NCBI GenBank assembly: GCA_937873455.1
Contig: CALMYG010000043.1
Coordinates: forward strand, 1-64,000
Direction of reading: 5' to 3'
DNA from: an uncultured Verrucomicrobiota bacterium
GTDB taxonomy: Bacteria > Verrucomicrobiota > Kiritimatiellia > CAIVKH01
Length of the DNA stretch: 64,000 nucleotides
Shown: positions 9,512-49,503 of the stretch, piece by piece
Layout of the letters: every line of letters starts with the position of its first letter
Position numbering within the stretch: the stretch's first letter is position 1
Notes under the pieces: model-generated
Databases searched by the model: none
What the model was told of the DNA's origin: nothing
Seen by the model: the letters and a program-made list of their open reading frames with translations, nothing else
Program-made: the position numbers and the translations under genes

Positions 9512-9513
9512 TA

Positions 9514-10857: not shown

Positions 10858-10861
10858 TTTT

Positions 10862-10908
10862 GTCCAATGGTTGGAAAAGTGCCGGTGAAAAAGTTCCAAT
10901 CATTGGAA
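10862..10908. repeat. Composite palindrome (15-17-15)
   Basis: GTCCAATGGTTGGAA (10862-10876), a 17-base spacer, then TTCCAATCATTGGAA (10894-10908). The same architecture and near-same palindromes recur at 43977-44023 inside a coding gene. This looks like a dispersed palindromic element family. Confidence 0.75.
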
Positions 10909-10911
10909 ATG

Positions 10912-11640: not shown

Positions 11641-11665
11641 ATTTTTGCGAGCCTCCGAACTTGAC

Positions 11666-12799: not shown

Positions 12800-12880
12800 T
12801 CACGCGGCCACTTTGTGACCAAATCCCGTCCGAAAATCCGCCCGACCGGGCGCAAGTGGTCACATGCCAAAATAAAGAAA

Positions 12881-12899
12881 CCCCTTGATAATCAAGGGG
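12881..12899 (-). terminator. Terminator carried with the tRNA 3' half
   Basis: CCCCTTGA/TCAAGGGG form an 8-bp stem with a 3-base loop. Read on the minus strand it is followed by TTTCTTTATTTT and lies just downstream of the tRNA-Val 3' half, so it is the tRNA terminator captured by the element. It may also stop the integrase transcript. Confidence 0.75.
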
Positions 12900-12903
12900 A
12901 AAA

Positions 12904-12952
12904 TGGTGGGCGATACAGGACTCGAACCTGTGACCTCTTCCATGTCAAGGAA
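12904..12952 (-). other. tRNA-Val(GAC) 3' half at the element junction
   Basis: The minus strand reads anticodon loop TTGACAT (anticodon GAC), a GGAAG anticodon-stem strand, a complete T arm, the 3' acceptor strand ATCGCCC, discriminator A and CCA. Its 3' region differs at two positions from the intact tRNA-Val at 40689-40765. There is no acceptor 5' strand or D arm upstream, so it is not a functional tRNA. It is the attP arm that would restore a split tRNA-Val. Confidence 0.85.
12938..12952. other. Central att core between the two element copies
   Basis: TTCCATGTCAAGGAA with element-type bases on both sides, that is, an intact attP-like junction. Recombination between it and either outer site would excise one copy as a circle. 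Confidence 0.85.
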
Positions 12953-13469
12953 AGGATCACCGCCACGGAATTAGAAGCAATCGAATTCCATTTTGCCCAT
13001 GTATTCAGGTGAATTCCAGGTGTGACCCGTCCTTGCCCTGATGTCGGAAATTTGATCTGCGACCATTCATGTGACCACTTTTTCCCGAAACTTTCCCTTG
13101 CTGGGTTTTGCGGTTCAGGCTGACACTTACGCCATGTTTTGCGGTTCTCGACAAACGAAGGATGTCTTAAAATATTTCCGATCTTGGGGATTGCCTTCGT
13201 TGCGAATCGCGTTCTATGATGAGCACCGCGATGGGTCAATTGTCCCGTCGACTTGTTCTTTACATTTTAGTTTTTGCGTTTTACGCAGAGTCGTTTCACA
13301 CGAAAACCGCGAACTTTTGATCCATGAAGCGAGACATGCGGAGGCGCGCCCCATCGGGCGCGGCTCCCTGTCTTATGTTTCATGGATGGGGCTTCGCGGT
13401 CCCTCGTGTGAGGCATGAGCTAGGAGTTCGCGCCTCTTCTTTTTTGAGGCGCAAATAAAGGAGGATAAA
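12953..13469. other. Gene-free left end, copy 2
   Basis: Identical to 131-647: leader of the cargo operon with a possible promoter, GC-rich inverted repeats and the 7-bp stem hairpin (13430-13452). No gene is seen. Confidence 0.5.
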
Positions 13470-22333: not shown

Positions 22334-22335
22334 TA

Positions 22336-22710
22336 ATGATGATGGCCAACGAGAACAGTTCTAATCTCAATTCTATAAGACGGCGTTATGGAAGAAGGCG
22401 AATTGTGTATTCCATCATCATTGGATTAATGGTGCTCAGGTTGTTTACTCATGGATACCGCCTTGTTTCGGCTGTTCAATATGAGCGTGGAGTTTTCGAT
22501 TATAGGCAGGCTGTTTCAATGTTTGTTGGCGGCGGTATAAACAAAGCTCGCTGTTATCCTGGTCATCTTGTGGAGTTTGCCCATTCGTATGTTTTGGGCC
22601 TTGTCGAAATTCTACTTCTTACTGTACTTCTCTTGGCTGTCAGAGGGAATTTTCGATGCTATGCTTTGTTGTTGGCCGAACACACGAGAAATCAGGATGT
22701 CGCCTCATAG
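22336..22710 (+). CDS. Small membrane protein, candidate immunity protein (copy 2)
   Basis: Identical to 9514-9888: 124 residues, two hydrophobic helices, two bases behind the Rhs stop, AT-rich. Function is inferred only from its position behind the toxin tip. Confidence 0.6.
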   Translation: MMMANENSSNLNSIRRRYGRRRIVYSIIIGLMVLRLFTHGYRLVSAVQYERGVFDYRQAVSMFVGGGINKARCYPGHLVEFAHSYVLGLVEILLLTVLLLAVRGNFRCYALLLAEHTRNQDVAS

Positions 22711-22891
22711 TGGAATCCTTCCACGGCTGATCCGCTTCGCAACCGGTTTTTTCCTTGGGGGATTGATCGGTTATTATTTCTTCCTGAGGTCTCACAGTGT
22801 GTTGAACTCATCATTTCAACCGCTCTTGATGCACATATTTGTTCCTGGTGTGGCATTCGGATTATTATTCGTAGTGTCACGAAACGAATGA
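22697..22891 (+). CDS. Small two-helix membrane protein (copy 2)
   Basis: Identical to 9875-10069: 64 residues overlapping the preceding gene by 14 bases. The overlap is the same in both copies, so if it is really a frameshift it predates the duplication. Confidence 0.5.
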   Translation: MSPHSGILPRLIRFATGFFLGGLIGYYFFLRSHSVLNSSFQPLLMHIFVPGVAFGLLFVVSRNE

Positions 22892-23733
22892 TGCCCGAAG
22901 TTGCCGAAAAGTTTAACATCGCCGATGACAACGGCATGCTTCGTGATGTGATCTTCAACCTCAGATCGGAGCGAGCCGGGCCTCGGGAAAGCCCCAACCC
23001 CCGACCCCCGGCCTGTCACGGCATCTGCTGTCGCACATGCCGCGCCAGTCCGCCCCGAAGACCCCACGCCCCTCCGCGCATCACGCGCTCTTGCCCTCAC
23101 TCGCTTGGGGCTCGTTCGGTCAAGCCCGCGTCATGCGCTCCGCCCCCAGCGGACCACGCGAAGCGCGTGGCAAGCTCGCTACGCTCGACGCGCGCGCCCG
23201 CAGGAGCCGCGCCAGTCGGTACTCGTCGAAGCGTCGAGAACCGCCTGTCACGCCTCCTGCTACACCCCCACGCCGAAACAAAAGCCACATTATGCGTCCG
23301 TTCGTCGAAGACTCCTCACACGTCGCGGGAATCCCTCGGCTTCGCCGTTTCCCGCGTCGTCGCATAATGTGCTCTTTTGTTCCGGCGCCACCCGGCGCGC
23401 GCTGAAAGGCGCTTCGCTTAGCGTCCCCCTTGGGCCGTAGCCCCCGGCCTGGGGGCTGGCCCGTTGGTCGGGCCGGTCACACGGCTCGGCGCACCTCGCA
23501 CGTGCCCGGCCCTCCGCGGACCTCGGCTATCGCCGAGTTCAATAAAATAGCCCCGGCACCCATCGCGCCCATGTGCGCAAAGCCGCCCATGGTCACGCTG
23601 GCTGCTCGCACCCCGAAGATCTGCGGACACTTTTTCCTTTCGCCGCCGAAGATGGTGGGGCGGCGAAAGAAAAAAGTGTTTTTGTCCAATGGTTGGAAAA
23701 GTGCCGGTGAAAAAGTTCCAATCATTGGAAATG
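22892..23733. other. Gene-free, inverted-repeat-rich region (copy 2)
   Basis: Identical to 10070-10911. The nested interrupted inverted repeat lies at 23277-23381, the 21-bp stem hairpin at 23627-23679 and the composite palindrome at 23684-23730. No gene is seen. Confidence 0.55.
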
Positions 23734-23997
23734 TCAGCGCGGCGTGTCGTATTCGTCGTTGCGCCAGGTCAAACCGATGCCCTTTGATTCGACGGACTGC
23801 ACCCAGCCGCAAGCCGGACACCACACCACGCGCAACGGTAAACGCAGTTCGGAAAAATACGCGCCGCGCGGCGGCGCGACCGCTTCAAAGGAAACCGAAT
23901 CGCTGGGAATCTTCCGGTTACGCACAAGCGCGGTGTGACACGCGGGACATGTTCCGAGATTTGCGTTGTCGTCGCTCATATCGTCCCGCTGTGTCAC
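23734..23997 (-). CDS. Small zinc-ribbon protein (copy 2)
   Basis: Identical to 10912-11175: 87 residues, two CPAC knuckles, GTGA overlap with the upstream XRE gene. Confidence 0.72.
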   Translation of the reverse strand: MTQRDDMSDDNANLGTCPACHTALVRNRKIPSDSVSFEAVAPPRGAYFSELRLPLRVVWCPACGWVQSVESKGIGLTWRNDEYDTPR

Positions 23998-24419
23998 GGA
24001 CGATTTTTAAGCACCGAGTCGAGCAGTTCGGTCAAAAACTTTTGTTTGGATTTCGGCAGTTTGCGGATTTCCTCCAACTGCCGTTCAAGTGTCGCCGGAG
24101 GTCCAGGTCGTTTGCGCGGAGCGCGCGTGTCCGCGCGCCCAATCAAATCCGATACGGAGACCTTGAGCAGATCAGCGGCTTTTTCGATGAACTCCAAGGT
24201 CGGGTTTTTCGCCCGGCTTTCGTAGTACGCGATCATGCTCCGGGTCATGCCGAGCTTGTCGGCCAGTTCCTGCTGGGACAGGCCGCGGCGTTCACGCGCG
24301 GCGGCCAGCCGTTGTCCGAACGGCGGCGCTTCTTTCATGGGTGGTCTTCCTGCCATGTCGCCAGCATACGGCATGGTTTTGTTTTTTTGTCTCATCTCGG
24401 GTTTTTTGCTTGTCTGCAT
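23994..24419 (-). CDS. XRE/Cro-CI family regulator (copy 2)
   Basis: Identical to 11172-11597. With two copies in tandem, repressor dosage is doubled while each copy keeps its own operator. Confidence 0.9.
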   Translation of the reverse strand: MQTSKKPEMRQKNKTMPYAGDMAGRPPMKEAPPFGQRLAAARERRGLSQQELADKLGMTRSMIAYYESRAKNPTLEFIEKAADLLKVSVSDLIGRADTRAPRKRPGPPATLERQLEEIRKLPKSKQKFLTELLDSVLKNRP

Positions 24420-24462
24420 TGTTAATTATAGTTAACAATATGGCGTGAGGTTAACAATAACC
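24419..24462. promoter_or_regulatory. Operator/promoter between repressor and integrase (copy 2)
   Basis: The same TTGTTAA-N6-TTAACAA inverted repeat and neighbouring half-site pair as at 11597-11640, overlapping the leftward TATAAT box. Confidence 0.72.
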
Positions 24463-24487
24463 ATTTTTGCGAGCCTCCGAACTTGAC

Positions 24488-25621
24488 ATGATCACCCGCC
24501 GACACAGCTTGAGCCGCGACCCCCGGACCGGGATTTTCTACGCCAAAATCCAGGTCGATAAGATCCGTCGCCGGTTCACCTTCGGCAAGAATCGCAAGGC
24601 GGCGGAATCGGCATTGCGAAAACTCGAACGGGAACTGGTGACCGGTGAAATGTCTTTCTGCGAACAGCCGACCGCTCCGACGGCTCCGCCGGAAACGGGA
24701 CTGTTGTTGTCGGAGTTGATCGCAAAACATCTGGAATGGGTGCTGAACAACCGAAGCCGGGGAACCTACGAGGTGCGCCGCCACTTTCTGACCGGCTTCA
24801 AAAAGTTCACCGGGGAATGTCCGGTCAACCGGATCGACCGGATCACGCTGGAAAACTTCGTCGCCTGGGCGCGTAAGCATCACGCCAAAAGCGGTAACGG
24901 CGGGGTGGCTTATCTGCGCCATGTGAAAACGATGTTTTTGTGGGCGGATGAAGTCGGGTTGTGTCCGTGTCCGGTTCGGCGTTTTCCCCGAGCGACCGAG
25001 GCGGCCGCACCGACCCGGCGTTTTACCGATGACGAGTTGGAAAAGTTGTTCCGGCAGGTGTCATCCGGGTTCAAGGACTTTCGGGACATGGTGTACTTCG
25101 GCCTGTTGACCGGCTTGAGGCCGCAGGAGTTGCGTCAATTACAGCGCGATCACATCTTGCGCGACAGCGAGGGTAACTTTTTCGTGATGATCCAGGAGCA
25201 CAAGACGGCGAGGACAGCCCGTCAACCGATGGGGCGAAGTGTGCCGTTGACCGACGAGGCGGCGGAAATCGTCCGGCGTCAACTACACGCGCACACGTCG
25301 TCTTCGTTTGTGTTCTTGAACGCGGATAGCAAGCCGTACAAGGCGCACACCTTCCGTCAACGTTTTATGCGTTGGTGTAAACGCGCCGAAGTCGCTCCGC
25401 GTCCGCCGTACGCGTTGCGTCATACGTTCGGCAGCATGGAAGCCGAGGCGAACATCAACCAGACCAGCTTGAGCCAGTTAATGGGGCATACCACGATCCG
25501 CACCACCGCCCGTTACATCTCCAACAATTACGATCATCACCGCAACGCCATCGGCGCGATTGTTGGCCGCGTAAAAACGCTCACCGGCCCCACGCTCACC
25601 GTGCTCGACAAGACCGCGTAA
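24488..25621 (+). CDS. Tyrosine-type integrase (copy 2)
   Basis: Identical to 11666-12799. This copy is the one next to the chromosomal right att site. Catalytic residues (Arg of TGLRPQEL, YxxRH, GH, Tyr of ARYIS) are all present, so both integrases should be active. Confidence 0.94.
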   Translation: MITRRHSLSRDPRTGIFYAKIQVDKIRRRFTFGKNRKAAESALRKLERELVTGEMSFCEQPTAPTAPPETGLLLSELIAKHLEWVLNNRSRGTYEVRRHFLTGFKKFTGECPVNRIDRITLENFVAWARKHHAKSGNGGVAYLRHVKTMFLWADEVGLCPCPVRRFPRATEAAAPTRRFTDDELEKLFRQVSSGFKDFRDMVYFGLLTGLRPQELRQLQRDHILRDSEGNFFVMIQEHKTARTARQPMGRSVPLTDEAAEIVRRQLHAHTSSSFVFLNADSKPYKAHTFRQRFMRWCKRAEVAPRPPYALRHTFGSMEAEANINQTSLSQLMGHTTIRTTARYISNNYDHHRNAIGAIVGRVKTLTGPTLTVLDKTA

Positions 25622-25702
25622 TCACGCGGCCACTTTGTGACCAAATCCCGTCCGAAAATCCGCCCGACCGGGCGCAAGTGGTCACATGCCAAAATAAAGA
25701 AA

Positions 25703-25721
25703 CCCCTTGATAATCAAGGGG
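25703..25721 (-). terminator. Terminator carried with the tRNA 3' half (copy 2)
   Basis: The same 8-bp stem, 3-base-loop hairpin as at 12881-12899, T-rich on the minus strand. Confidence 0.75.
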
Positions 25722-25725
25722 AAAA

Positions 25726-25774
25726 TGGTGGGCGATACAGGACTCGAACCTGTGACCTCTTCCATGTCAAGGAA
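25726..25774 (-). other. tRNA-Val(GAC) 3' half at the right end
   Basis: The same 3' half as at 12904-12952. On the minus strand the five bases before the anticodon loop are CTTCC, which pair perfectly with GGAAG. Further upstream is ordinary intergenic DNA with a terminator and no D arm. No complete tRNA is therefore rebuilt at this junction. Confidence 0.85.
25760..25774. other. Right attachment site of the integrated element
   Basis: TTCCATGTCAAGGAA followed by chromosomal G (not A), then GGATCA shared with the element for six more bases. Joining the left flank (to 115) and right flank (from 25775) around one core predicts the empty chromosomal site. Confidence 0.85.
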
Positions 25775-35490: not shown

Positions 35491-35960
35491 CGCATTACCT
35501 CCAGCAGTTGTTTCTCGAGCCCTTCCTTGATTTCCCGCCGCAACGCGTCCGGGTCGTGAACAAACATGGCATGAATGTAGAGCGTGCGACGATCCTCGGA
35601 AACATCCAGACTAAGCGTTCCCGGCGTCAAGGTGATCACATTGGCCAACAAGGCAATTTCCGCGTCGGTTTTGGCGTCCAGCGGAATCGCCACCACGCCC
35701 GGGCGCATGTAGTAGGTCGGGGTGATCACGTCGTACGCTACGCGCGCGCTCGAGACCACCATTTCCTTGAGAAAGAGCACGACGAAGCGGATCACTTGTC
35801 CGACCTTCAGGAAATACGACGACTTTTCCCGGGCGCCGAAAAGAAGGCCCAGAATGACGTAGCCAAGCACAAAGCCGGCGAACAGGTTACCCAGGCTGAT
35901 TTCGCCGGTCAGCAAGGCCCACAAAAAGGCTAGAACCAGGTTGTAGAAAAAGGGTTTCAT
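35487..35960 (-). CDS. mrpE: Mrp cation/proton antiporter subunit E
   Basis: 157 residues. N-terminal helices ([25 protein letters not shown]) precede a cytoplasmic domain with the family motif [26 protein letters not shown]. MrpE is needed for antiport but is not itself a channel subunit. It overlaps mrpD by four bases. Confidence 0.93.
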
Positions 35961-37468
35961 GGGCGTGCGCCTCCCGGGAGTACAGCTTCCAGGTAGGCCG
36001 CCGGGTTCAAAAGTTGGGTCGCCGCCGTTCCACAGAGGTCAAGCGCCCATCCCGCCCCAAGACCCAGCGCAACCGAACACGCCGCAAGCAGCGCCACCGG
36101 CCCCATCAGCGCGATCCGCTCCCGGGTGGTCCAGGTCCACGGTGTTGCCGGCAGCGGGGAATCCGCCGGGCGAGGCTTCCAGAATGCCTCGTTCCAAATT
36201 TTGGTCATGGAAAACAAGGTCAAAAGTCCCACCCCCAGGGCGATCGCGGTAACCGCATACCGTTCCACCGCGAAACCGCTCTGGGCCAGCGACCATTTAC
36301 CGAAAAATCCGGACAACGGCGGCAAACCGGCCAGCGCCATCGCCGCGATCAGAAAACCAACGGAAAACAGCGGTTGCGCCTTGAACAATCCGCCCATCTG
36401 CTTGAGGTCGTGAATGCCGGTCTTGTGGGATACAATCCCGGCGATCAGGAACAAATTGGTTTTGGCGATGATGTTGTGCACCATATAAAAAATCGCCGCC
36501 GCGATGGCCGTCTGGGTGAACAGTCCCAACCCCATGATCATGTAGCCGATCTGGCTGATAATGTGAAATGCCAGCAACCGCCGGAAATTCATTTGCGCGG
36601 CCGCGCCAAGCACCCCGGTTACCATCGTGAAGGCGGCCAGCATCAAGATTAACTGCAAGGTGAAGGTATCCGGGGTAAATACCAGCGTGAACATGCGCAA
36701 CAGCGCATAGACACCCACCTTGGTGAGCAATCCGGCGAAAATCGCCGATACCGGCGCCGGCGGAGTGTGGTACGAAGCCGGCAGCCAGAAAAACAAGGGG
36801 AAGATCGCCGCCTTGATACCGAAGGCCACCAGGAAGAGCATGCTCACCGTGGTGATCAGACCGGGGTCCTCGGACCCGCGCAACACCAAAGCAAGATCCG
36901 CCATGTTCAGTGTCCCGGTCAACCCGTATAAAATCCCGACCGCGGCGAGAAACAGCGCCGAGGCGAGAAAGTTCAAGGCCACATATTTAATGGCGCCCTC
37001 AAGTTGCGGGCGTTCCCCGCCCAGCGCGAGCAGGACGAACGAGGCCATGAGCATGACCTCAAACCAAACGTACAAGTTGAACAGATCCCCGGTTAAAAAC
37101 GACCCGTTCACGCCCATGAGCAAAATCTGGAAAAACGCATGGTAATAATGACGTTCCCGACGCTCGTCCATGGTGACCAACCCGTACACCGCGGACAACA
37201 AACCGAGCAGACCGGACATCACCAGCATGATTGCGCTCAATACGTCCACGACCAGCGTGATACCGTAAGGCGCCGCCCAGTCGCCCATCTGCGCAACGAT
37301 CAGCGTGCCGCCCCCGACCCGAACCATCAAAACCACCGCCACCACCAGTTGAAGGAGACAACCGGCGATCGAAGCCATCCGCTGCGCCGGCAGGTTGCCG
37401 CGCATCAGGATGCACACGATACCGGTCAGCAACGGCAATAGAATGGGAAGCGCGGGCAAGGCGTTCAT
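35957..37468 (-). CDS. mrpD: Mrp cation/proton antiporter subunit D
   Basis: 503 residues with about 14 transmembrane helices, homologous to the NuoM/NuoN antiporter-like subunits of complex I. Key signs are the conserved TM5 Glu region ([13 protein letters not shown]), the TM7-8 lysine motif ([28 protein letters not shown]), and [16 protein letters not shown]. It carries one of the two proton paths of the antiporter, the other being in MrpA. Four-base overlaps join it to mrpC and mrpE. Confidence 0.95.
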
Positions 37469-37815
37469 GCGTCGGTGCTCCGCAGCTTTTCCATGTCATC
37501 GGTTTCCGTTTCCTGGTGGGTGCGCAACAGCAGCACCAGGGCGAACGCCAGCAGCGCGAAGCTGATCACGATGGCGGTCAGGATCAGCGCCTGGGGGAGG
37601 GGGTCGGCAATAAGCCCGGCTGGCGCATCGCTTCCTTCTGGAATAATCGGCGCGCGGCCGCCGCTCAACCCGCCAGCGGTAAAAATCAACAGGTTGGCCC
37701 CGTGGCTGAGCAGGGCCAGGCCGATGATGAACCGGGCGATGCTTCGCCGCATCATGAGGTACAATCCGGAGGCGTAGAGCACGCCGATGGCGATGGCCAG
37801 CATCAATTCGGTCAT
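37465..37815 (-). CDS. mrpC: Mrp cation/proton antiporter subunit C
   Basis: 116 residues, three transmembrane helices, homologous to NuoK. Motifs: [26 protein letters not shown] and [17 protein letters not shown]. It overlaps mrpB and mrpD by four bases each. Confidence 0.93.
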
Positions 37816-38240
37816 GACGCCTCGTCCTCCCCCTCGGCCAAGGCAAATAAAATGGTGACGGTTACCCCCAAGACAACCAGATAGACCCCGACATCAAAAA
37901 GCAACGGGGTGCCCGCCTTCACGATCCAGGTCTCGGTGATGGTCCATTTGCCCCACCGTGCGGTTAAAAACGGGCGGCCCGCCGCCAAACCGGCCAACCC
38001 GCTCAACAGCGCGAGCAACAGGCCCCACGCGGTCAGACGGGCGCTGTCCACCCGGAGCAATCCCCGCGCCGCCTTCACGTCAAAGGCCAATGCGTACAAC
38101 ACATAGGCGCTGGCCGCGGCCAACCCGCCGACAAACCCGCCACCCGGATCGTTGTGGCCGCGAAACAGCACATAGATGGAAAACAGGAGGATCAGCGGAA
38201 ACAAGTAACGCGCCGCCGTACGTAAAATCAGCGACGTCAT
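37812..38240 (-). CDS. mrpB: Mrp cation/proton antiporter subunit B
   Basis: 142 residues, four transmembrane helices, with the MrpB signature [13 protein letters not shown]. It overlaps mrpA and mrpC by four bases. MrpB resembles the C-terminal end of MrpA and the MbhF subunit. Confidence 0.93.
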
Positions 38241-40534
38241 GATTCCCCGCCTCCATTTTTTGTGCGCAATTTCAACAAGGCCAATGCCCCCAGGCCGGCC
38301 ACCGCGAGCACGGTGATTTCACCCAGCGTATCCAACGCACGGTAGTCCACGAGAATCACGTTCACGATGTTTCTTCCGTGGCCGAGCGGAACACTGGTCG
38401 CCGCAAAATAATCCGAAATCGGCTCGCCCACGCTGACGCCGGTCGCCAGCAACACCAACAGCGTCATCACCACGCCGGCAAAAATCGACACCAGTAAATC
38501 GCGGGCGCGGCCACGCCAGGTCGACCGTCGGGTGAACGCCGGCAGGTAATAGAACGCGGAAACGAGAAGCACGACACTGAGGGTTTCGATCACCAATTGC
38601 GTCATCGCCAGGTCGGGCGCGCCGAATAAAACAAAAACCAGGGCGATGGAAAATCCAACCACGCCCATCGCGGCCACCGCGCCCAGCCGCGACGCCGATA
38701 CCGCCGCGGCAATCGACGCCACCACGATCAACGCGCACAAGATAAACATGGGCAGGGTTAGCGGAGTCCGGTCGCGCAACTGCAGGGAAAGTTCCGAGCG
38801 GGCAAAGCTCACCGCGAACAAGGCGATTACGGTCAGCAGAATGATCATCAGGTACCGGCGAAGGGAACCGCTCTGTAGCGCCTTGGTCTGCCATTTGGCC
38901 AGACTCAACAAGCCGCGGAGTGCGCCATCATAACCCCGGTCCGGACCCAGGCGAGCCAACCCGGCCATTCGATTCCCCAGCCCGGCCAACCGGGGCGAAA
39001 CCAACACGACAATTCCCCCCAACGCCAGCGTGGCCAGGCTGGCCATTAATTCGCGATTAAAACCGTGCCAGACGTGCAGGTGCATATCAACCGGGGCGAA
39101 TGCGGTTGCGGATGCCGCCGCGCCGGCCAATGCATCCGCGGTCCAGCCGGGAAACAAGCCCCCGGCCACCGTGATGACGCCCAGCAACACCGGCCCCAAG
39201 GTCATCGTCCATGGCGGCTCATGCGCATGCTTGGGCGTCTCCCGGTAGCGCGCCCAAAACGGTCGAATGCCGGTTTGCACCGCCACCAGCAGAAAAAATG
39301 CCCCGGAGACCACGGCGACCACCGGCAACCAGCCGTGTTGGAAAAGAACCGCGTACTGCAGTTCTTTACTGATAAAACCGAAGGCCGACGGAACACCGGC
39401 CATGGAAAGCGCGGCCACCAGCGCCGTCGCCCCGGTGATCGGCATGTAGCGGAACAAACCGCCCAGCTTCGTGACATTCTTTTCGCCGGTTTCGTGGTCG
39501 ATCGAACCGGCGACCAGAAAAAGCGCCGCCTTGTAGCAGGCATGGGCCATCAGGAAAACCATCGCCGCTTCGACTGCCGCCTCGGTGCCGATTCCCAACA
39601 GCATCACCAGCGCGCCCAACGCCGCCACCGTCGTATAGGCCAGCAACCGTTTCAGGTACACCTGCCCGGCCGCCATCACCGCTCCGGTCAGTAAGGTCAG
39701 CGCACCGAAACCGGTCAATGTCAGCGTCCAGGCCTCCGTGCCGCCGAGCGCGGGATGCAGGCGGGCCAACAGGTAAACGCCCGCCTTCACCATCGTCGAA
39801 GAATGCAGGTACGCGCTGGCCGGGGTGGGGGCGGCCATGGCATTCGGCAGCCAGAAATGAAACGGCGCCTGGGCCGATTTGGTAAACGCGCCGACCAGTA
39901 CCAACCCCAGCATAACCGGATAGTGCGGGTGATCAACCAAGAGATCACGGGAGGCCACCACCGCGCTCAGGGAAAACGTGCCGACGGCCCGGCCGATCAG
40001 CAACACCCCGGCGAGTAAAAACAAACCGCCCATCACGGTTACCAGCATCGCCTGCAAGGCCGCGCGGCGTGAAGCCTCCTCATCGTGGTTAAACCCGATC
40101 AATAGAAACGAGGTGAAACTGGTCAATTCCCAGAATATGAACAGCAGGATCAGGTTGTCCGCGGTCACCACGCCCAACATCGACGCCATGAACATCAGCG
40201 TGTACATCACAAAGCGGTGCTGTCGGGGATCGCCATGCAGGTAACCGTGGGTGTACAGGACCACCAATGTTCCGATACCACTGATCATCAACGCAAACAG
40301 CAGCGACAAACCGTCCAGGCGGAATGCAAGGTCCAGCCCCAGCGTCGGCATCCACGGGAGGTAGGCCGTGATGACGTCGCCGGAGGTGACCCCGACGAAG
40401 CCGGAGGCCAGCCACAGCGTAGCCGCCAGCGGACACAATGCCGCCACCAGCGACGCCTTGTCGCCGATCCGGCGGTGAAGCCAGGGCAACAGCGCCGCCA
40501 CAACAAAGCCGCTGAAAACCATCGCCAGCATCAC
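38237..40534 (-). CDS. mrpA: Mrp cation/proton antiporter subunit A
   Basis: 765 residues; GTG start, with an ATG as the second codon. The N-terminal ~500 residues are a NuoL-type antiporter domain ([70 protein letters not shown]). The C-terminal ~250 residues are the MrpA-specific part ([42 protein letters not shown]). This is the full-length fused form, first gene of a seven-gene operon with four-base overlaps throughout. The complex exchanges cytoplasmic Na+ (or other monovalent cations) for external protons. Confidence 0.95.
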
Positions 40535-40644
40535 GAGCTTACCGCCTTAACGTTGGAACAATTGTATACCATCGCGCGCACCCTACATAAAATCGCCCTC
40601 CGGCTCAACCGGAATAGAAAGAAGGCAAAAGTACCGGCGACGGG

Positions 40645-40673
40645 TTGACAGCGCATGCCGAATTTCGTAGTGT
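40645..40673 (+). promoter_or_regulatory. Promoter of tRNA-Val
   Basis: TTGACA (40645-40650), a 17-base spacer and TAGTGT (40668-40673), ending 15 bases before the tRNA. It is a good match to a sigma-70 type promoter. Confidence 0.7.
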
Positions 40674-40688
40674 GCCGATCCTTCTTGA

Positions 40689-40765
<77 letters not shown>

Positions 40766-40802
40766 GACTTCGTCCACCGCATACCCCCCCGATTGAAAGC
40801 TG

Positions 40803-41366
40803 TTAATCGGCGGGCGGTTTCTCGAAATAAATATCGTCGATGTAGCCGTGCTCGAAGTGCCATTTCTTTTGCCCCCCAGCGACGACCCAAAGCTCAATCT
40901 GCGCCTCGCTGCCGAGGTATTCGGACAAGTCGTACGTAGAACGGGTCCATCGCGAGCCATCCAACACCACCGCGCCAATCGACTCGCCGTTCACCCGGCA
41001 GTCGAGGATGCAATCACCGTTCACATTTCCCGAAGCTTCTACGACCAAAATCGGACGACTGAGGGGCACGGTTCCGATAAAGGTGAGCCGGGCAGGCTCC
41101 AGCGGGGTTATGGGGTGCAGTTCAAGGATGCCAGATCTTGGATGGACGGGGTCATAATGTGGGCGGTTTACAAATTTTCCAGGCAGCATTTGACCTGCGT
41201 ACCAATGACGATCGAATTGGGATGACGGAACTCCGCCCTCGCCCCAAGTCGTCACGAGCGCCCATTGTGTCGTCCATGGCTCTTGTTTCTTGCTGTTGAG
41301 GGTGGCGCACGACGTGATCGTCATGGTTGCAAGAAGTGCAACGATCAGGTGACGGAAACGGTTCAT
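40803..41366 (-). CDS. Lipoprotein with beta-sandwich domain
   Basis: 187 residues with a lipoprotein signal ending ITSC (about Cys20); AGGAG stands seven bases before the ATG. The mature part is beta-rich (LTFIGTVPLSRPILVVEASGNVNGDCILDCRVNGESIG...STYDLSEYLGSEAQIELWVVAGG), a jelly-roll pattern like carbohydrate-binding or NPCBM-type modules. The HFEHGYIDDIYFEK ending fits the last strand. It lies 58 bases downstream of the RCC1 gene on the same strand. Specific ligand unknown. Confidence 0.75.
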   Translation of the reverse strand: MNRFRHLIVALLATMTITSCATLNSKKQEPWTTQWALVTTWGEGGVPSSQFDRHWYAGQMLPGKFVNRPHYDPVHPRSGILELHPITPLEPARLTFIGTVPLSRPILVVEASGNVNGDCILDCRVNGESIGAVVLDGSRWTRSTYDLSEYLGSEAQIELWVVAGGQKKWHFEHGYIDDIYFEKPPAD

Positions 41367-41424
41367 GTCATTCTCCTTTATTTCCCAACGTACTCATCGT
41401 TTGGACGCGGTTGGCCATCAAGGT

Positions 41425-42528
41425 TTATTCCCTAAATACGCGATAAAACATGGTCTGTTTATTATCCGGCGGCAGAAGGTGGAGCGTGGTCAATGAATCG
41501 CTACCCGTCCAGAATGGCAATACGGTTTCCCATCTGGCCAGATCGGAAGAAGCCATCATCGTATAGCGAACCGAGCGCTCGGAAGTGATCTGCATGCCGA
41601 TGATGGGGCTGTCTTCACCCACGGAAACCTCTGCTATGGCATGTTCCTGTTGAAAGGGGATCTTCCATGTAAAATCCGGCACATTGGTTTGACCTCCGCT
41701 GTTTCCGCCCCAGCACACGAGTTGACCCTCAGCGGTCAAGGCCATGCTATGAAAGCCGCCAGCCGCTATCGCGACGACGTTGGAAAGTCCGGGCGGAACG
41801 TTGCATTGTCCATTAACATTCAATCCCCAAGCACGCACGGTTCCGTTCATTAAAAGGGCGAGATAGTGCTGATAATTACCGGCTATGGCGATAATGCCCG
41901 TCGTGACCGGCGGCGATGGCACATCGCCCCAATAGGTGATAACACCATTATCACGTAGCGCAAGGCTTCCATAATGACCGGCAGCAATGGCGACCACATT
42001 GGAAAGACCTGCAGGTACATTGACCGCGCCCTTCAAGGTGTCACCCCAAGCCGTGACGCGACCATCAGCTCCCAAGGCGAGGCTGTGCTCAGGTGCGGCG
42101 GCAATGGCAATCACGTTGGATAAGGATGGGGGCGGAGTCGCCTTTCCCTGCCTGTTTCCACCCCAGCCAACGACAACACCTTGCTGCGTCAACGCCAGGC
42201 TGTGCTCGCTTCCTGCGGCAATGGCGACCACATTGGAAAGCGTAGGCGGGATGGCGATCTGATTGGTATAATTATTTCCCCAACCGAAAACCCTGCCATC
42301 GTCACGGAGGCCCAGGCAGAAAACATTTCCGGCAGAACCGCTAAGCGCGACACAATTTGTCAGTTCAGGCGGCACATTGAGTGCATTGACGATATCCCAA
42401 CCCCATGCCTTTACGCTGCCATCTTCAGCAATGGCATAACTCTGGTTGGATGCGCCGTCGATGGTAAATCCGGTTGATATGTGCCCGGTCAGCAGCAGAA
42501 ACGTTGCGATCGCAAAAAGTGATCTCAC
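41425..42528 (-). CDS. Exported RCC1-repeat protein
   Basis: 367 residues: a signal peptide (about 1-21), then six or seven RCC1-type propeller repeats of about 48 residues (NVVAIAAGSEHSLALTQQGVVVGWG and similar), then a C-terminal beta domain (about 290-367: ISSERSVRYTMMASSDLARWETV-like pattern) seen in secreted PVC proteins. RCC1 propellers mediate protein contacts; no enzymatic motif is present. Probably in an operon with the downstream lipoprotein. Confidence 0.82.
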   Translation of the reverse strand: MRSLFAIATFLLLTGHISTGFTIDGASNQSYAIAEDGSVKAWGWDIVNALNVPPELTNCVALSGSAGNVFCLGLRDDGRVFGWGNNYTNQIAIPPTLSNVVAIAAGSEHSLALTQQGVVVGWGGNRQGKATPPPSLSNVIAIAAAPEHSLALGADGRVTAWGDTLKGAVNVPAGLSNVVAIAAGHYGSLALRDNGVITYWGDVPSPPVTTGIIAIAGNYQHYLALLMNGTVRAWGLNVNGQCNVPPGLSNVVAIAAGGFHSMALTAEGQLVCWGGNSGGQTNVPDFTWKIPFQQEHAIAEVSVGEDSPIIGMQITSERSVRYTMMASSDLARWETVLPFWTGSDSLTTLHLLPPDNKQTMFYRVFRE

Positions 42529-42815
42529 GTATGTCCCTTAAGCGCGGTTAAAAGAAGATTCAAGCTTAATGTCAATCTCACAAGGGCGCATCCCAGATTC
42601 CTTGACTGATGCATTTCGTTTACCATCCATGCCATCAGGGGACTTTAGAGGGGATTGTGAAAAGAGCCCGCCTTCTTTTTATGCAACGCAGGCGCATGTG
42701 CTACCGCGGGAAGCCGTCGGGCAGACCCGCGAACGCGGGTCCGGGGAGTCGGTTGAACCAGCGGGCCGAGCCGGTCGTCGGCGACCGGCGGTCAGCAAGG
42801 CGGAGCGGGGGACGC
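42529..42815. other. Repeat-bearing intergenic region
   Basis: About 290 bp without a gene. It holds dispersed repeat copy B (42583-42631) and a second repeat (about 42678-42714, ending CTACCGCGGGAAGCC) that recurs at 60221-60257. It also holds a hairpin GACCCGCG-AA-CGCGGGTC near 42725. These are shared with other intergenic regions of this window. Confidence 0.6.
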
Positions 42816-44591
42816 TTACTGCGCGAGCCAGAACAGGATCAGGGCGACCGCCCCGGCAGCGAGGCCGCTGATACTCCAAACGGATAGCGCCTGCTCGCCT
42901 TGCGCCAAGGCGCGGGACACCGGTTGCATGAATCGGCGGAAGCCATCGGCAATTCCACTGGTTGCGGCCGCCGCCCCGGTCTGTGTGCGCGGGCGAAACG
43001 CGGCTCCAATAACCCGGCCGGTGGCGGCATAAAGCCTATACAAGTCGCCGGCCGGAATGATCGGCGTTTCCCCGTTCAACCACCGGCGAACCAGGCCGTA
43101 ACCCGCCGCGCCAATCACCATGGGAATTACGCCTTTCAAGGCGGCGAACGGCAACGATCCGAGGTGGGCGTGATCAAATACACCCAAGGCGACAATCAGC
43201 GGTCCGACGATGATACCCGTCAACAGTACAAGCCAGGGTTGCCAAACGCCCACGGGCGACGCGTGGTGTTCGTCATAGGCAATGGTTCTCAACGTGAAGA
43301 GGTACCGCAACATCAGCAAGGTGGTGCCCGCCGCCGCGAAGGTCAACAAGGTGATGATCGTCGCCTCCGAGGGCAGTCCGGCCCGTCCGACCGCATCCTT
43401 CAGCGCCGCCTTGGCCAGTGCGCCGCTGGTGAACGGGGCGCCAATCAAGGCGAGCGCTGCGAAACTATTGCCCGACCAAAACACCACCCGTTCCCATCCG
43501 GTTAAGTTCCGCACGGATTTAAGACCTACGCTGAGAAACAGCAGGCATTTGGCAAAGGCGTGATGACTGGCATATAAAACGATGGCCGGAATCAACGCGG
43601 TCACCAGGTAGGGCGCGGTGAGCGCAATGCCGATACCGGTGGTCATGAGTCCCATTTGGCTGACGCTGGAGTACGCCAGCACCGCCTTCGGGTGCGTTTG
43701 CAGGCAGCCGATCACCGCGGCCAAATAGGCTCCGGCCAATCCGAGCGTGATCATCAAACCACCCAGGACCGGGAAAGCATCCAAGCCCAGCGGCAACAGA
43801 TGCATCCAGCCGATCAAGCCGGCTTTAATCATCGCACCGCTAAGTACCGCGCTGGCCGGGGTGGGCGCAACCGGATGGGCCATCGGCAGCCACACGTGCA
43901 AACCAAGCAGCCCCGCTTTTACGCCGAATCCGGCAATAAAGAGACCGGCGACCCACGGATCGCTGGCACGAAAATGTTCCAAGGTTTGGAAGTTTTCCAG
44001 CCCGGAAGTTCCAAGGTTTGGAAAAATGGCCAGAACCAAACCGGCGAATTGGAGGACTTCGCCGAGCACGGCCATGCCCAGATATACGCGGCCGGCGACC
44101 ATGGAGGCGGGGCGACCGTCATGAATGACCAGGCCGTACGACATGAAACTCATCACGGCAAAGCAGGTGAAAAACATCGCGGGATCGCGGGCGAGAATCA
44201 GGCCGAAATTTCCGGCCATTGCGCCGAGAAAAAAACCGCCGTACCGTCCGCGGCGTTCATCGTGGGCGAGGTAATAGCGCCCGAACCATCCGGCGCAGCA
44301 CCACAACAACGCGGTGAAAAACAACCAGGGGGCGTTGCCAAGGTCCAAGGCAAACCGTGCGCCCAGCACCAGCGCGGATACGTTAAGCTCGATCGCGCCA
44401 AAGGGTGAATCCGGAAAGAATAGCGCCCAGAGCGCGGCGGGTATCGCCGGGAGCGCGGCAATGGGCGCAAGCCCGAAGATGCGGTCGGCCATTCCCGGAA
44501 CCAAGGCGATGACCAGTAACAGCACGGGCAACAGGAGTACCGTCGCCAGCAGGATCTGGCCGGGATCAAGCGTCGAAAGCATCGCGCTCAT
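42816..44591 (-). CDS. MrpD/HyfB-like antiporter subunit (third large subunit)
   Basis: About 591 residues from MSAMLSTLDPGQ; the frame extends upstream to 44750 but that lies inside the preceding gene, and ATG overlaps its stop as TGATG. It has 14-16 transmembrane helices, with FGVKAGLLGLHVWLPMAHPVAPTPASAVLSGAMIKAGLIG (channel lysine and proline turn) and VLAYSSVSQMGLM. It belongs with NuoL/M/N, HyfB and MrpD. In-frame, about residues 190-205 (FPNLGTSGLENFQTLEHF) are encoded by a composite palindrome and look inserted in an interhelix loop. It is the last gene of the second Mrp-like operon. Confidence 0.87.
   Translation of the reverse strand: MSAMLSTLDPGQILLATVLLLPVLLLVIALVPGMADRIFGLAPIAALPAIPAALWALFFPDSPFGAIELNVSALVLGARFALDLGNAPWLFFTALLWCCAGWFGRYYLAHDERRGRYGGFFLGAMAGNFGLILARDPAMFFTCFAVMSFMSYGLVIHDGRPASMVAGRVYLGMAVLGEVLQFAGLVLAIFPNLGTSGLENFQTLEHFRASDPWVAGLFIAGFGVKAGLLGLHVWLPMAHPVAPTPASAVLSGAMIKAGLIGWMHLLPLGLDAFPVLGGLMITLGLAGAYLAAVIGCLQTHPKAVLAYSSVSQMGLMTTGIGIALTAPYLVTALIPAIVLYASHHAFAKCLLFLSVGLKSVRNLTGWERVVFWSGNSFAALALIGAPFTSGALAKAALKDAVGRAGLPSEATIITLLTFAAAGTTLLMLRYLFTLRTIAYDEHHASPVGVWQPWLVLLTGIIVGPLIVALGVFDHAHLGSLPFAALKGVIPMVIGAAGYGLVRRWLNGETPIIPAGDLYRLYAATGRVIGAAFRPRTQTGAAAATSGIADGFRRFMQPVSRALAQGEQALSVWSISGLAAGAVALILFWLAQ
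43977..44023. repeat. Composite palindrome (15-17-15) inside a coding gene
   Basis: TTCCAAGGTTTGGAA twice (43977-43991 and 44009-44023) separated by 17 bases, the same layout as at 10862-10908. It lies in frame in the leftward antiporter gene and encodes part of NLGTSGLENFQTLE. It resembles palindromic elements known to insert into genes in some bacteria. Confidence 0.78.
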
Positions 44592-46084
44592 CAATATTCC
44601 CTCCCGGTGATCAGCAGCGCCCACTGGAGCGGGCTGTAATCCGATCCGGCAAACAAGCCGACCAGCACGGTGAGCAGCGCGGTGACCACCGGGGGTATGA
44701 CCAACCACCACGAAGCTTCCAGCCAGCCGCGGGCATGACGTTCTTCCCAAACCCGGTCCGGCCGCTCAAACCATGCCACCCGCAGGATGGGGAGAAAGTA
44801 AGCCGCGTTTAACAGGCTGCTTGCCGCAAGCACCAGCAGCACCCAGTTGTTTCCGGATTCCACCGCGCCCAGACCGAGGTACCACTTGCTGATAAAACCG
44901 GCAAGCGGGGGAACGCCGATCATGCCGAGCGCGGCGATGGAAAAAGCGCCCATGGTCAAGGGCATGCGCCGGCCAACGCCCTTGAGCTCGCTGATTTTGT
45001 GCAGATGCAGCGTCTCGGCAATATTCCCGGCGGCGAAGAACATGGTGATTTTCATCACGCCTTGATGCACCAGATGCACGAGTCCGCCAACCGTGCCGAG
45101 CGGCCCGAACAAGGTAATGCCGAGCAAAATGTAGGAAACCTGACTGACCGTGGAAAAGGCCAGTCGTTTCTTGAAGTCATCCTGCACCAAGGCCCGCGCC
45201 GAACCGTACAAAATGGTGAACGAGGCCATGATCATAAACGGGGTCAACACCTGCAGCGTCTCGGCGAATTCGATGCCGAAGACGTCATACACGATGCGCA
45301 CCATGCCGAACGCGCCCGCCTTCACCACCGCCACCGCATGCAACAAGGCGCTGACCGGGGCTGGCGCCACCATCGCCGATGGCAACCACGCATGCAGCGG
45401 GAACAACGCCGCTTTTACCCCCGCCCCGAGCATGAACAGGAAAAAGATGATGACCAGGGAACCGTGGGTCGACGACGGCAACGCGGACAAAACGCCGGTT
45501 TCGGTGAAGTCAAAAGCGCCGGCAATCGAATACAACCAAACCATGCCGACCAAAAACAGCGCGCTGCCGCCCAAGGTGTAGGCCAGGTAAAGGGTGCCGG
45601 CTTTGATCGATTTCTCGTTGCCCCGATGCACCACCAGCGGATAGGTGGTCAACGTGAGCATTTCGTAAAACAGAAAAAAGGTTACCAGATTGCCGGCGAG
45701 CGAGACGCCCATGGTCGCGGTTACACAAAAGCTGAAATAACCGAAAAACCGGCGGCGAAAGGGCGAGTTTTCAAGGTAACCAATGGCGTAGATGGTCGTC
45801 AACAACCACAAGCCCGCCGACAAGGTGGAAAACAGAACCGTCATGCCGTCGGCGCGCAGCACAAGATCAAAGCCGGGTAAAAACGGGATGCGGGTTTGAT
45901 ACTCGTGGCCATGAAACACGCCCCATAACATCATCGCAACCAGTCCCATTTTTGCGACCGCCCCGATGAGGTTCAGTGCGGTACGCGCGGCGACCCGGTG
46001 TTCGCCGAGCGCCAGGATGATCACCCCGGTGACGAACGACGTCAGCAATACCAACAAGGGAATCCAGGCATCCAGGCTGGTCAC
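44591..46084 (-). CDS. MrpD/NuoL-like antiporter subunit (second large subunit)
   Basis: 497 residues from a GTG that overlaps the upstream stop (GTGA); the longer frame to 46366 is inside the neighbour. About 14 transmembrane helices, with RRFFGYFSFCVTATMGVSLAGNLVTFFLFYEMLTLTTYPLVVH (TM5 Glu), GAGVKAALFPLHAWLPSAMVAPAPVSALLHAVAVVKAG and KKRLAFSTVSQVSYILLG. It is the NuoL/MrpA-N-like proton-path subunit of the second Mrp-like complex. Confidence 0.9.
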   Translation of the reverse strand: MTSLDAWIPLLVLLTSFVTGVIILALGEHRVAARTALNLIGAVAKMGLVAMMLWGVFHGHEYQTRIPFLPGFDLVLRADGMTVLFSTLSAGLWLLTTIYAIGYLENSPFRRRFFGYFSFCVTATMGVSLAGNLVTFFLFYEMLTLTTYPLVVHRGNEKSIKAGTLYLAYTLGGSALFLVGMVWLYSIAGAFDFTETGVLSALPSSTHGSLVIIFFLFMLGAGVKAALFPLHAWLPSAMVAPAPVSALLHAVAVVKAGAFGMVRIVYDVFGIEFAETLQVLTPFMIMASFTILYGSARALVQDDFKKRLAFSTVSQVSYILLGITLFGPLGTVGGLVHLVHQGVMKITMFFAAGNIAETLHLHKISELKGVGRRMPLTMGAFSIAALGMIGVPPLAGFISKWYLGLGAVESGNNWVLLVLAASSLLNAAYFLPILRVAWFERPDRVWEERHARGWLEASWWLVIPPVVTALLTVLVGLFAGSDYSPLQWALLITGREY

Positions 46085-47583
46085 GGCAAGCCCTCCAGAT
46101 ACAGGCCGACCGAGGCCGGTGCGCCGATCCGCAAGAGGTAAAAGAGCGGATAGGAGGATAGACCAAAAACCAGGGACAGAATGGCCAGGGTCAGCGCCAC
46201 CGCTTCCATCCGGCGCGGCGGTTGATGCAGCACCGGCACATCCCGGGCGGTGAGCAAACGACGATACACCCGGAACAAATAACCCACCGCCATCAACCCG
46301 CCGAGAATCATCACCACCGCCCAACCCCATTGCCCGGAAGCCACCGACGCGCTCAACAACAGCCATTTGGCGATAAACCCGGCCCCCGGCGGAATGCCCA
46401 TCAGGCTGATGCCGGCCAAGGCCATCGCGGTGGCCGTCAACGGCAGTTTTTCACCGAGCCCGCGCAAGCTGTCGAGTCGGTCATCGCCCACGGCATGAAT
46501 CACCACGCCCGCGGCCAAAAACAACGCCGCTTTGGCCAGCCCGTGCGACAGCGCCTGGTAGACGCCGCCGGCCCACGCATAGCTCGCCCATAGCGGATCA
46601 CCCGCCCATCCGGCATGAAGCAGGGGAAACATGATGAACAGGTAGCCGATCTGCGCCACCGTCGAATAAGCAATCAGCAATTTCAGTCGCGACTGGCGTA
46701 TCGCCTGGGCCGAACCCCAAAGAATCGCCGCCGCGCCCAGCGCACCCAGGCCGATCGCCAAGTACCGGGTTGACACTACCGGCCACAAGACAAGTTGCAA
46801 CCGCAACAGAATGTAAAAGCCTGCTTTTACCACCAGCGCCGACAACGCGGCGCTGACCGGCGATGGCGCATTCGCGTGCGCCGGTGGCAGCCAGAAGTGC
46901 AGGGGAAACAAGGCGGCCTTGGCGATCAATCCGATCGTCATCAAGGCCAAGGCCACCTGCGTTACGCTGCCGGGTTGTATCCGCGCGGCCAGCGTCGTCA
47001 AGTCCAGCGAACCGTACTCTCCATACAGGAAGACCACCCCCAGCAAGTAAAACAGCGATGCGCACAAGGCAATCAGCAGGTAACGCATGCTGCCGGTCAA
47101 GGCTTGCGGTTTTTCCGACAAGGTGATCAGCCCCACCGCGGCCAGGCCCGAAAGCTCCAGCGTGACGTACCAATTAAAAATGTCAGCGGTTAAAAAGATG
47201 GCGTACAGCCCGCTCAACAGGAAGAACCACAACGGCCAGAAATATGCGGCTTGGCGTTGCTCCTCGGCCGAGGAGCCGAAATACTCCAGGGCATAGCGGG
47301 AAATCATAACCCCCACCAGCGAGGTCAGGAGAATCATCGCCGCGGCCAGGCCGTCGATTTGCCAGGTAATGCCGAGCGGGGCCACCCAGCCGCCGATGCT
47401 GTGGCTGTAGGGGCCGCGCAGAAGCAACTTCGCGAACGTCATCGCGGTGGAAATGGCGATCCCCGCCAACACGAAGCTCACCACCCCTCGCCGGCCCTGC
47501 TCCCGAAAGGCAAAGGTCGTCGCCGCGCCCAACGCCGGGATCGCGACCAACCAGGTTTCCGGTTGTTGAAGGACCGGGATCAT
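46081..47583 (-). CDS. mrpD: Mrp-type antiporter subunit D
   Basis: 500 residues, about 14 transmembrane helices. IFNWYVTLELSGLAAVGLITLSEKPQALTGSMRYLLIAL is characteristic of MrpD-type subunits; AKAALFPLHFWLPPAHANAPSPVSAALSALVVKAG carries the channel lysine, and RLKLLIAYSTVAQIGYL follows. It overlaps its neighbours by four bases on each side. Paralogous to 35957-37468 but clearly diverged. Confidence 0.9.
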   Translation of the reverse strand: MIPVLQQPETWLVAIPALGAATTFAFREQGRRGVVSFVLAGIAISTAMTFAKLLLRGPYSHSIGGWVAPLGITWQIDGLAAAMILLTSLVGVMISRYALEYFGSSAEEQRQAAYFWPLWFFLLSGLYAIFLTADIFNWYVTLELSGLAAVGLITLSEKPQALTGSMRYLLIALCASLFYLLGVVFLYGEYGSLDLTTLAARIQPGSVTQVALALMTIGLIAKAALFPLHFWLPPAHANAPSPVSAALSALVVKAGFYILLRLQLVLWPVVSTRYLAIGLGALGAAAILWGSAQAIRQSRLKLLIAYSTVAQIGYLFIMFPLLHAGWAGDPLWASYAWAGGVYQALSHGLAKAALFLAAGVVIHAVGDDRLDSLRGLGEKLPLTATAMALAGISLMGIPPGAGFIAKWLLLSASVASGQWGWAVVMILGGLMAVGYLFRVYRRLLTARDVPVLHQPPRRMEAVALTLAILSLVFGLSSYPLFYLLRIGAPASVGLYLEGLP

Positions 47584-47888
47584 GGTTCATCCACCGCCGG
47601 TTCTTCGAGGGTGGGGGACCCGGTGATTTTTTGTAGCCGGGCGGCCAACGCCACCGCATAGGCGGTCGCGCTGACTGAAATTACGATGCCGGTCAACACC
47701 AGCGCGTGCGGCACCGGGTCCAGCTTGTCGCCGCGATAGGCCAGCGCCACCATCAGCAGGAACACCCCGGCCGAGGCAATGTTGAGGCTCAACAATTTCT
47801 TCAACAGATGCGGCTGGGTCATCAGGCCGAATACCCCCATGACAAACAGCAACACGCCGGTAATGCCGTAAATGGATACCACGGTCAT
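47580..47888 (-). CDS. mrpC: Mrp-type antiporter subunit C (NuoK-like)
   Basis: 102 residues, three transmembrane helices. YGITGVLLFVMGVFGLMTQPHLLKKLLSLNIASAGVFLL and DPVPHALVLTGIVISVSATAYAVAL match MrpC. It overlaps neighbours by four bases. Confidence 0.9.
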   Translation of the reverse strand: MTVVSIYGITGVLLFVMGVFGLMTQPHLLKKLLSLNIASAGVFLLMVALAYRGDKLDPVPHALVLTGIVISVSATAYAVALAARLQKITGSPTLEEPAVDEP

Positions 47889-48628
47889 GGTCCGCGCTCC
47901 TCCCGGCGGGAAGGCGATCCCGGTTCATCCACCTTGATACCGGCCACACCCGCAAACAGAGCGGCCAACGCCGCACCGATGGAAACCGCCAACAAGGTTT
48001 CGATCAGCAGGATCATCGTGCCCGCCCAGGCCATCGGATAATTCAACAGGCGTCCTTTGAATAAAACAGTCAAAATCGCCACCGTCATGAAAAAAGAAAA
48101 GCCACCGGCCAGAGCCAACCGGGTGCGACGGCTGCGCCCGAACGGCGCGGGCAACATGCCGCTGGAAATCAACGTCACGGCGGCCGCGCCGAGAATCGCC
48201 CCCGACTGAAACGCACCGCCCGGACGGTACGAGCCGATCCAAACCATGTAACCGGCCATCAAAACCATCAGCGGCAAAATAATCGAAAGATCCACCCGCA
48301 GCGCGGCATTGTTCGGCGAAGGCAAACGCAAGCGCAAGTGACCGCTTTTGCCCGAGGCATCCAGCGACCATACCGCAATCACCGCAACCAATAACACGCC
48401 GATCTCCAACAGCGTGTCGTAGCCGCGAAAATTCAGCAATACCGCCGTCAACGGATGCAGAACGCCGCTGGCCGACATTTCCTCATCGACCAGGCGCGGC
48501 AGTTCGCCATTCGCCGGCGCGGTGGACAAAACCGTTTGCACCAGCACCACCGCGAGCGCGATGAACACAGGCAACAGAGCCCACCGGCTCACGCGATACC
48601 AGCGTCGATGTTTGCGTCGAAGACTCAC
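47885..48628 (-). CDS. MrpA-C-terminal/MrpB fusion subunit (MbhE/F-like)
   Basis: 247 residues. The N-terminal half holds the piece normally at the end of MrpA (VLLNFRGYDTLLEIGVLLVAVIAVWSL). The C-terminal half is MrpB-like (LMAGYMVWIGSYRPGGAFQSGAILGAAAV, with the GGAF motif). Together they have about six helices. In a classical Mrp operon these are parts of two proteins; here they are fused, as in some Mbh-type clusters. It overlaps neighbours by four bases. Confidence 0.82.
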   Translation of the reverse strand: MSLRRKHRRWYRVSRWALLPVFIALAVVLVQTVLSTAPANGELPRLVDEEMSASGVLHPLTAVLLNFRGYDTLLEIGVLLVAVIAVWSLDASGKSGHLRLRLPSPNNAALRVDLSIILPLMVLMAGYMVWIGSYRPGGAFQSGAILGAAAVTLISSGMLPAPFGRSRRTRLALAGGFSFFMTVAILTVLFKGRLLNYPMAWAGTMILLIETLLAVSIGAALAALFAGVAGIKVDEPGSPSRREERGP

Positions 48629-48921
48629 GGGGCCTCCTCCGGTGGCGGCTTGGTCGCGGGCGGAGGTTCCGTCGCCGCCGGGCCGGCCTTAAACGCCCGC
48701 AAGGCATGCAGCAAAAGCGCCCCGGTCAAACCGGCGCCCAGCGCGGCCTCGGTCAACGCGATATCCGGAGCGCGCAAACGCGCCCAGCCCAGCGCCATGA
48801 GCAGACCAAAAACCATGAACAAAATCACCGAACGCAACAACACGCGGGAAAAAATGGCCGCCGCCGCCAACCCCAGCAAGGCCGCCGCCAGCAAGGCATC
48901 AAAAGCGACAATCGCATTCAC
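48625..48921 (-). CDS. DUF4040/MbhD-like subunit
   Basis: 98 residues from a GTG overlapping the upstream stop (GTGA), with GGAGG eight bases before; a TTG five codons upstream is less likely. Three helices with ILFMVFGLLMALGWARLRAPDIALTEAALGAGLTGALLL, the APDIALTEAALGAG motif of the MrpA C-terminal domain and MbhD. It ends in a Pro/Glu-rich tail. In classical Mrp systems this domain is fused to MrpA. Confidence 0.85.
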   Translation of the reverse strand: MNAIVAFDALLAAALLGLAAAAIFSRVLLRSVILFMVFGLLMALGWARLRAPDIALTEAALGAGLTGALLLHALRAFKAGPAATEPPPATKPPPEEAP

Positions 48922-49223
48922 GACTCCTTCCTCCAAAAGGGCGTGCGGTTGCGGTGCGCGGCATTGGCGACCAAAAACGCGCTCAGCGAGCTGCTGAACA
49001 TGATGAGCAGCCAGACCAGAAACAACTTCACCGCTTCAAACGGCGACCCGGCCCGGAGCGCCAGCGCCAGGGCAATCAAGCCCAGGCCCAGATTGTCGGC
49101 TTTGGTCAAGGCATGCAGCCGGGTATAGACATCGGGAAAACGAAGCATGCCGACGGTCCCGGCCAGGAAGAACAGACAACCCAACCCGAGAAGCCCAATC
49201 GATAAAACATCAAGCCACGACAT
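48918..49223 (-). CDS. mrpG: Mrp-type antiporter subunit G
   Basis: 101 residues from MSWLDVLSI; GGAGGAGG precedes by six bases, making this ATG preferable to the one two codons upstream. It has three helices and the motif VGMLRFPDVYTRLHALTKADNLGLG. It overlaps mrpF by 14 bases. Confidence 0.9.
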   Translation of the reverse strand: MSWLDVLSIGLLGLGCLFFLAGTVGMLRFPDVYTRLHALTKADNLGLGLIALALALRAGSPFEAVKLFLVWLLIMFSSSLSAFLVANAAHRNRTPFWRKES

Positions 49224-49503
49224 CGTCATCCTCCTCCGAATCGGGCGGCAAGCTCGTCCACAACCGGCAAACAAACGCGATCAACGTCACCGCGGCCAAA
49301 AGCGCAAAAATCAACGCCGCATCGATCAGCGACGATGACTCCTGCCAAACCGCCAGAATCAGCAGGATGCCCGTTCCGGTTGTACCGAGAAGTTGCGTAG
49401 CCAGCAGCCGGTCGGCCGGCGTCGGTCCCAAATAAATCCGGAACAATCCGGCCAGCAGGTTCAACATTAAAAAAAGCGCCGCGGCGGCATGGATTTCATT
49501 CAT
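49210..49503 (-). CDS. mrpF: Mrp-type antiporter subunit F
   Basis: 97 residues, three helices, with FRIYLGPTPADRLLATQLLGTTGTGILL (conserved Asp) and an acidic C-terminal tail (SEEDDDVV). It overlaps mrpE by eight bases. Confidence 0.9.
   Translation of the reverse strand: MNEIHAAAALFLMLNLLAGLFRIYLGPTPADRLLATQLLGTTGTGILLILAVWQESSSLIDAALIFALLAAVTLIAFVCRLWTSLPPDSEEDDDVVA

Follow-up and report, generated by a model that had tools for sequence, protein, structure and literature searches.

The element in the antiporter gene

The window, i.e., the whole stretch of 64,000 nucleotides that was analysed, contains at 35957-49503 a large antiporter cluster of Mrp/Mbh-like type, in which several subunits belong to PF00361 and one subunit is a fusion to MbhD/MbhE domains; the palindromic element considered here is present in one subunit only of this cluster. 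The host protein is an Mrp/NuoN-like antiporter subunit of 591 aa, and the product of its gene (42816-44591, minus strand) matches Proton_antipo_M (PF00361, 5.5e-26). As for the element, it spans 47 bp (43977-44023), it is in frame, and it consists of TTCCAAGGTTTGGAA, 17 bp, and TTCCAAGGTTTGGAA again; the palindromic element announced by the original prediction is therefore real, with two identical 15-bp palindromes and a 17-bp spacer. The relevant features of the window are:

43977..43991, no strand: palindrome 1, TTCCAAGGTTTGGAA, 15 bp
43992..44008, no strand: linker GTTTTCCAGCCCGGAAG, 17 bp, with an imperfect extra TTCC...GGAA at 43995-44007
44009..44023, no strand: palindrome 2, TTCCAAGGTTTGGAA, 15 bp, 32 bp from palindrome 1
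43971..44024, minus strand: codons 190-207, FPNLGTSGLENFQTLEHF, inter-helix loop
42816..44591, minus strand: antiporter subunit carrying the element, PF00361, loop colinear with homologues
10862..10908, no strand: second element of the family, GTCCAATGGTTGGAA (one mismatch) and TTCCAATCATTGGAA, 32 bp apart
23684..23730, no strand: the element at 10862 again, within the second unit of a 12.8-kb tandem duplication

The last entry stems from a 12,822-bp tandem direct duplication (116-12952, repeated at 12938-25774 without mismatch) that doubles one palindromic element, and is either a very recent event or an assembly artefact.

Regarding translation, the segment reads AI-FPNLGTSGLENFQTLEHF-RA (aa 190-207), and the element codes for most of FPNLGTSGLENFQTLEHF. 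In the AlphaFold model, built on a five-sequence alignment and with a mean pLDDT of 60.8, this segment falls in a loop (193-203) of low confidence that joins helices 161-192 and 212-232, in agreement with the view that the palindrome is read in frame at a place between helices where change is tolerated. That the element had been inserted there, as was also proposed, is not borne out: the loop is 2 aa shorter than in a congener with 54% identity, and alignment with homologues lacking the palindrome gave no length excess. The peptide does recur elsewhere in the proteome, since FPxxGxx...FFQTLE also occurs in Cas3 of the same genome.

Spacing, placement and distribution of the family

Six TTCCAANNNTTGGAA sites at ≤1 mismatch occur in the window against 0.21 expected, a number reached by 0 of 100 shuffles, and 151 exact copies are present in the 4.12-Mb genome, with ~0.11 expected from composition; the reversed control pattern gave no match in this genome. 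Rfam returned only tRNAs within the window. In the class (Kiritimatiellae-type Verrucomicrobiota), the exact pair was found in 57 of the 288 genomes sampled, in 1 to 1089 copies and with zero control matches, and in none of the 40 genomes sampled elsewhere in the phylum; in this sample, the family is restricted to the class. Among the matches listed, the named contigs carrying the pair are labelled Kiritimatiellae, Lentisphaerae, Verrucomicrobia, or uncultured MAGs. At L119 and L135, TTCCAANNNTTGGAA palindromes are dispersed within coding genes and are mostly unpaired. The literature searched yielded no paper that contains this exact motif or reports repeats of the kind from the group.

Element statistics for this genome refer to ~694 kb of it, selected partly for holding elements; in these 694 kb, palindromes ≤110 bp apart are spaced by 32 bp (43 times) or 64 bp (7 times) only, pairs and triples being the rule. 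Named relatives have 195 spacings of 32 bp, 32 of 31 bp, and 7 of 33 bp. The linkers are mostly unconserved, with a mean identity of 8.8/17 compared with 5.7/17 after shuffling, an excess that comes partly from the A/T flanks; information is near zero a few bases beyond the palindromes, and the element is without defined ends. The central base of the palindromes is C/G in 370 of 376, those of this genome tend to have AAAAAG or CTTTTT flanks, and the favoured exact central triplets are genome specific (ACC/GGT here, TCA/TGA in G003). Dyad sites, a fixed helical spacing, and a free linker, the traits of a phased protein-binding site, are all found.

As for placement, ~31 of 39 elements of this genome are intergenic on a gene map drawn with a simple, purpose-written Markov gene finder in place of a standard program. 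The flanking genes are tandem in 15 cases, convergent in 5, and divergent in 8, the background being 57/18/25% of intergenic length; as the counts follow the background, the elements appear neutral to gene direction, and a terminator or promoter role was rejected for this reason. The median distance is 36 bp from stop codons and 107 bp from start codons.

The short distance from stop codons would suit an RNA-level element, with the palindromes acting as tandem bidirectional hairpin terminators or mRNA stabilisers; likewise, the AAAAAG...CTTTTT-flanked unit folds at -11.1 kcal/mol into a hairpin of 12 bp, and shuffled sequences fold less well than the pairs do. However, the elements are not depleted between divergent genes, copies lie within conserved coding regions, the T-tracts are unconserved in G003, and the dialect-B pair has no significant hairpin (z -1.6), which makes this reading very improbable. 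In addition, reverse-complementary central triplets are not in excess over identical ones in this genome, so a long stem between the two palindromes was rejected.

The family also resembles REP/BIME elements, which, with the RAYT transposases, fall into the GTAG and CGTC super-families (PMC3733652). The likeness lies in short, clustered, mostly intergenic palindromes with patchy copy number and occasional intragenic copies; the differences are the exact 32-bp register, the codon colinearity, the lack of depletion between divergent genes, and the lack of correlation with Y1_Tnp. Under a REP/MITE-like reading, a transposase would spread a short non-autonomous palindromic unit through intergenic DNA and now and then into a gene, and the copies would later decay by mutation. 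Dispersal with copy numbers of 0-1089, the mostly intergenic placement, and favoured triplets that differ by genome speak for it, since few favoured triplets per genome could reflect copying from a master sequence; the elements lie nearer stops than starts, and so do REPs. Furthermore, two of the six Y1_Tnp/RAYT loci of this genome (L210 and L211; G000:C34 and C173) have an element within ~1.5 kb, with ~0.4 expected. Conversely, the mostly unconserved linker and the lack of defined ends do not fit a copied unit; copy number is unrelated to the number of Y1_Tnp genes over 34 genomes (Spearman 0.02, p 0.92), G021, G039, and G050 carry elements with no Y1_Tnp match, and the element logo has no GTAG/CGTC tag at the palindrome end, displaying A/T tracts instead. 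Mobilisation by RAYT was judged unlikely on the missing correlation and tag.

Coding copies and orthologous sites

Six coding cases were compared with homologues; in five of them (antiporter, ThiD, Cas3, PPTase, and NamZ), palindrome-free homologues line up with the element codons in a colinear manner. Cas3, whose element copy has one mismatch, reads FPTIGTLHDRFFQTL where a homologue has FPGLDELHRRYEQYM; ThiD, with one mismatch, aligns gap-free; the Sfp-type PPTase is colinear and 3 aa shorter. NadE (L044) is the sixth case: its element is in an inter-domain linker that exceeds the one in two solved homologues by ~37 aa, and a net DNA gain may have occurred there.

These data also bear on the similarity to Rickettsia palindromic elements (RPEs), which are inserted units of ~150 bp, each encoding a conserved peptide (PMC10969869). 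This part of the original prediction holds in that the element is palindromic, repeated, and in frame in tolerant regions of unrelated genes, and fails on the rest: the unit is 15 bp and paired at 32 bp, the linker is mostly unconserved in place of a ~150-bp sequence conserved throughout with its peptide, and the host proteins are not lengthened relative to homologues, apart from the NadE linker. As five of the six genes show no gain in length, an RPE-type insertion was rejected.

ThiD offers the clearest comparison, within one genus (g11): palindromes at 32 bp are present in G013 and G040 and absent from G157 and G095, and yet the peptide is nearly the same and of equal length there, with no indel; the differences are substitutions, silent in 6-7 of the 9-12 codons concerned, and the change may be either gain or loss of the palindromes. 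ThiD of family f30 (L280 of G119, L282 of G212) has two to three palindromes 29-30 bp apart that overlap the g11 places, and the two sets may be convergent.

Regarding orthologous sites, the element is retained, with altered triplets and flanks, in the PPTase genes L033/L137 and at the intergenic site L048/L296 (G007/G005), where G006 has no element. Such retention, like the missing length gain in five of six genes, weighs against the REP/MITE-like reading. In the empty-site test in congeners, the L058 element is missing from G005, but the G005 spacer is longer, and no clean insertion signature was obtained. On the other side, some intergenic comparisons have extra DNA on the element side, e.g., L092 of G003, with a 115-bp spacer at the element where this genome has overlapping genes. 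The surplus sequence at these junctions and in the linker of NadE, together with the favoured triplets and the stop-codon bias, keeps a REP-like origin alive, although we consider it rather unlikely.

Dialects and a candidate paired binding site

The motif differs between close relatives. G006 has 49 TTACAGNGCATGGAA pairs ~31 bp apart and zero TTCCAANNNTTGGAA pairs, whereas its congeners G005 and G007 have 76 and 87 TTCCAANNNTTGGAA pairs; a search of 39 other genomes gave no TTACAGNGCATGGAA pairs. L057/L250 is an orthologous intergenic site at which one dialect replaces the other within a single 1.9-kb alignment. Intermediate motif forms occur at 31 bp in G002, and a degenerate variant at 32 bp in G001.

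Many copies, in-situ gain within codons, and lineage dialects are features of DNA uptake sequences, such dialects being reported for Neisseriaceae (PMC3630211). By analogy, biased uptake during transformation would let the motif accumulate in situ by molecular drive. This is improbable, considering that the elements are dyad-symmetric, mostly intergenic, and obligatorily paired at a fixed distance of three helical turns, an arrangement that, to our knowledge, no known uptake sequence has.

Noc NBS, MatP matS, and ParB parS are chromosome-organising dyad sites, and the family is like them in that short palindromic sites are scattered over the chromosome, also within genes, protein binding being putative here; the family differs in its strict pairs or triples at 32 bp, its up to ~1000 sites, the single class in which it was seen, and its putative reader.

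The fixed three-turn spacing, the dyad symmetry, the free linker, the central C/G, the codon colinearity, and the coherent dialects are more readily explained by a paired protein-binding site than by mobile DNA or an RNA hairpin, and this is the best reading of the sequences. Specifically, we give a probability of about one half to the element being a bipartite recognition site for a putative DNA-binding protein, with copies arising by substitution. The 15-bp dyad sites, TTCCAANSNTTGGAA, usually two but sometimes three or four in number and 32 bp or ~three helical turns apart, would place the bound dimers on the same face of the helix, suggesting cooperative binding. The putative sequence-specific reader would occupy between some tens and about a thousand positions, most of them intergenic, and would be indifferent to the direction of neighbouring genes. 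Intragenic copies would arise without insertion: bases in codons already present would be substituted at places where the protein can bear the change, the antiporter loop being one example. Between species, the motif would shift genome-wide with the spacing nearly constant, as expected if the sites co-evolve with their reader. The most likely role would be chromosome organisation or another form of genome-wide tagging, more so than the regulation of individual promoters or terminators.

A broader interpretation is put forward tentatively, and is doubtful on present comparisons: the family may be a class-specific and apparently undescribed genome-tagging system, in which phased palindrome pairs are point-substituted into intergenic DNA and into the codons of conserved enzymes, and in which sibling species change dialect across the whole genome as the sites co-evolve with a single putative DNA-binding protein. 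If so, repeated palindromes within bacterial proteins need not be selfish insertions, and the demand for a phased site at the DNA level could rewrite codons even in conserved enzymes; congeners that differ in dialect would provide a natural experiment, both for tracing the reader protein and for learning the function of the sites across the chromosome.
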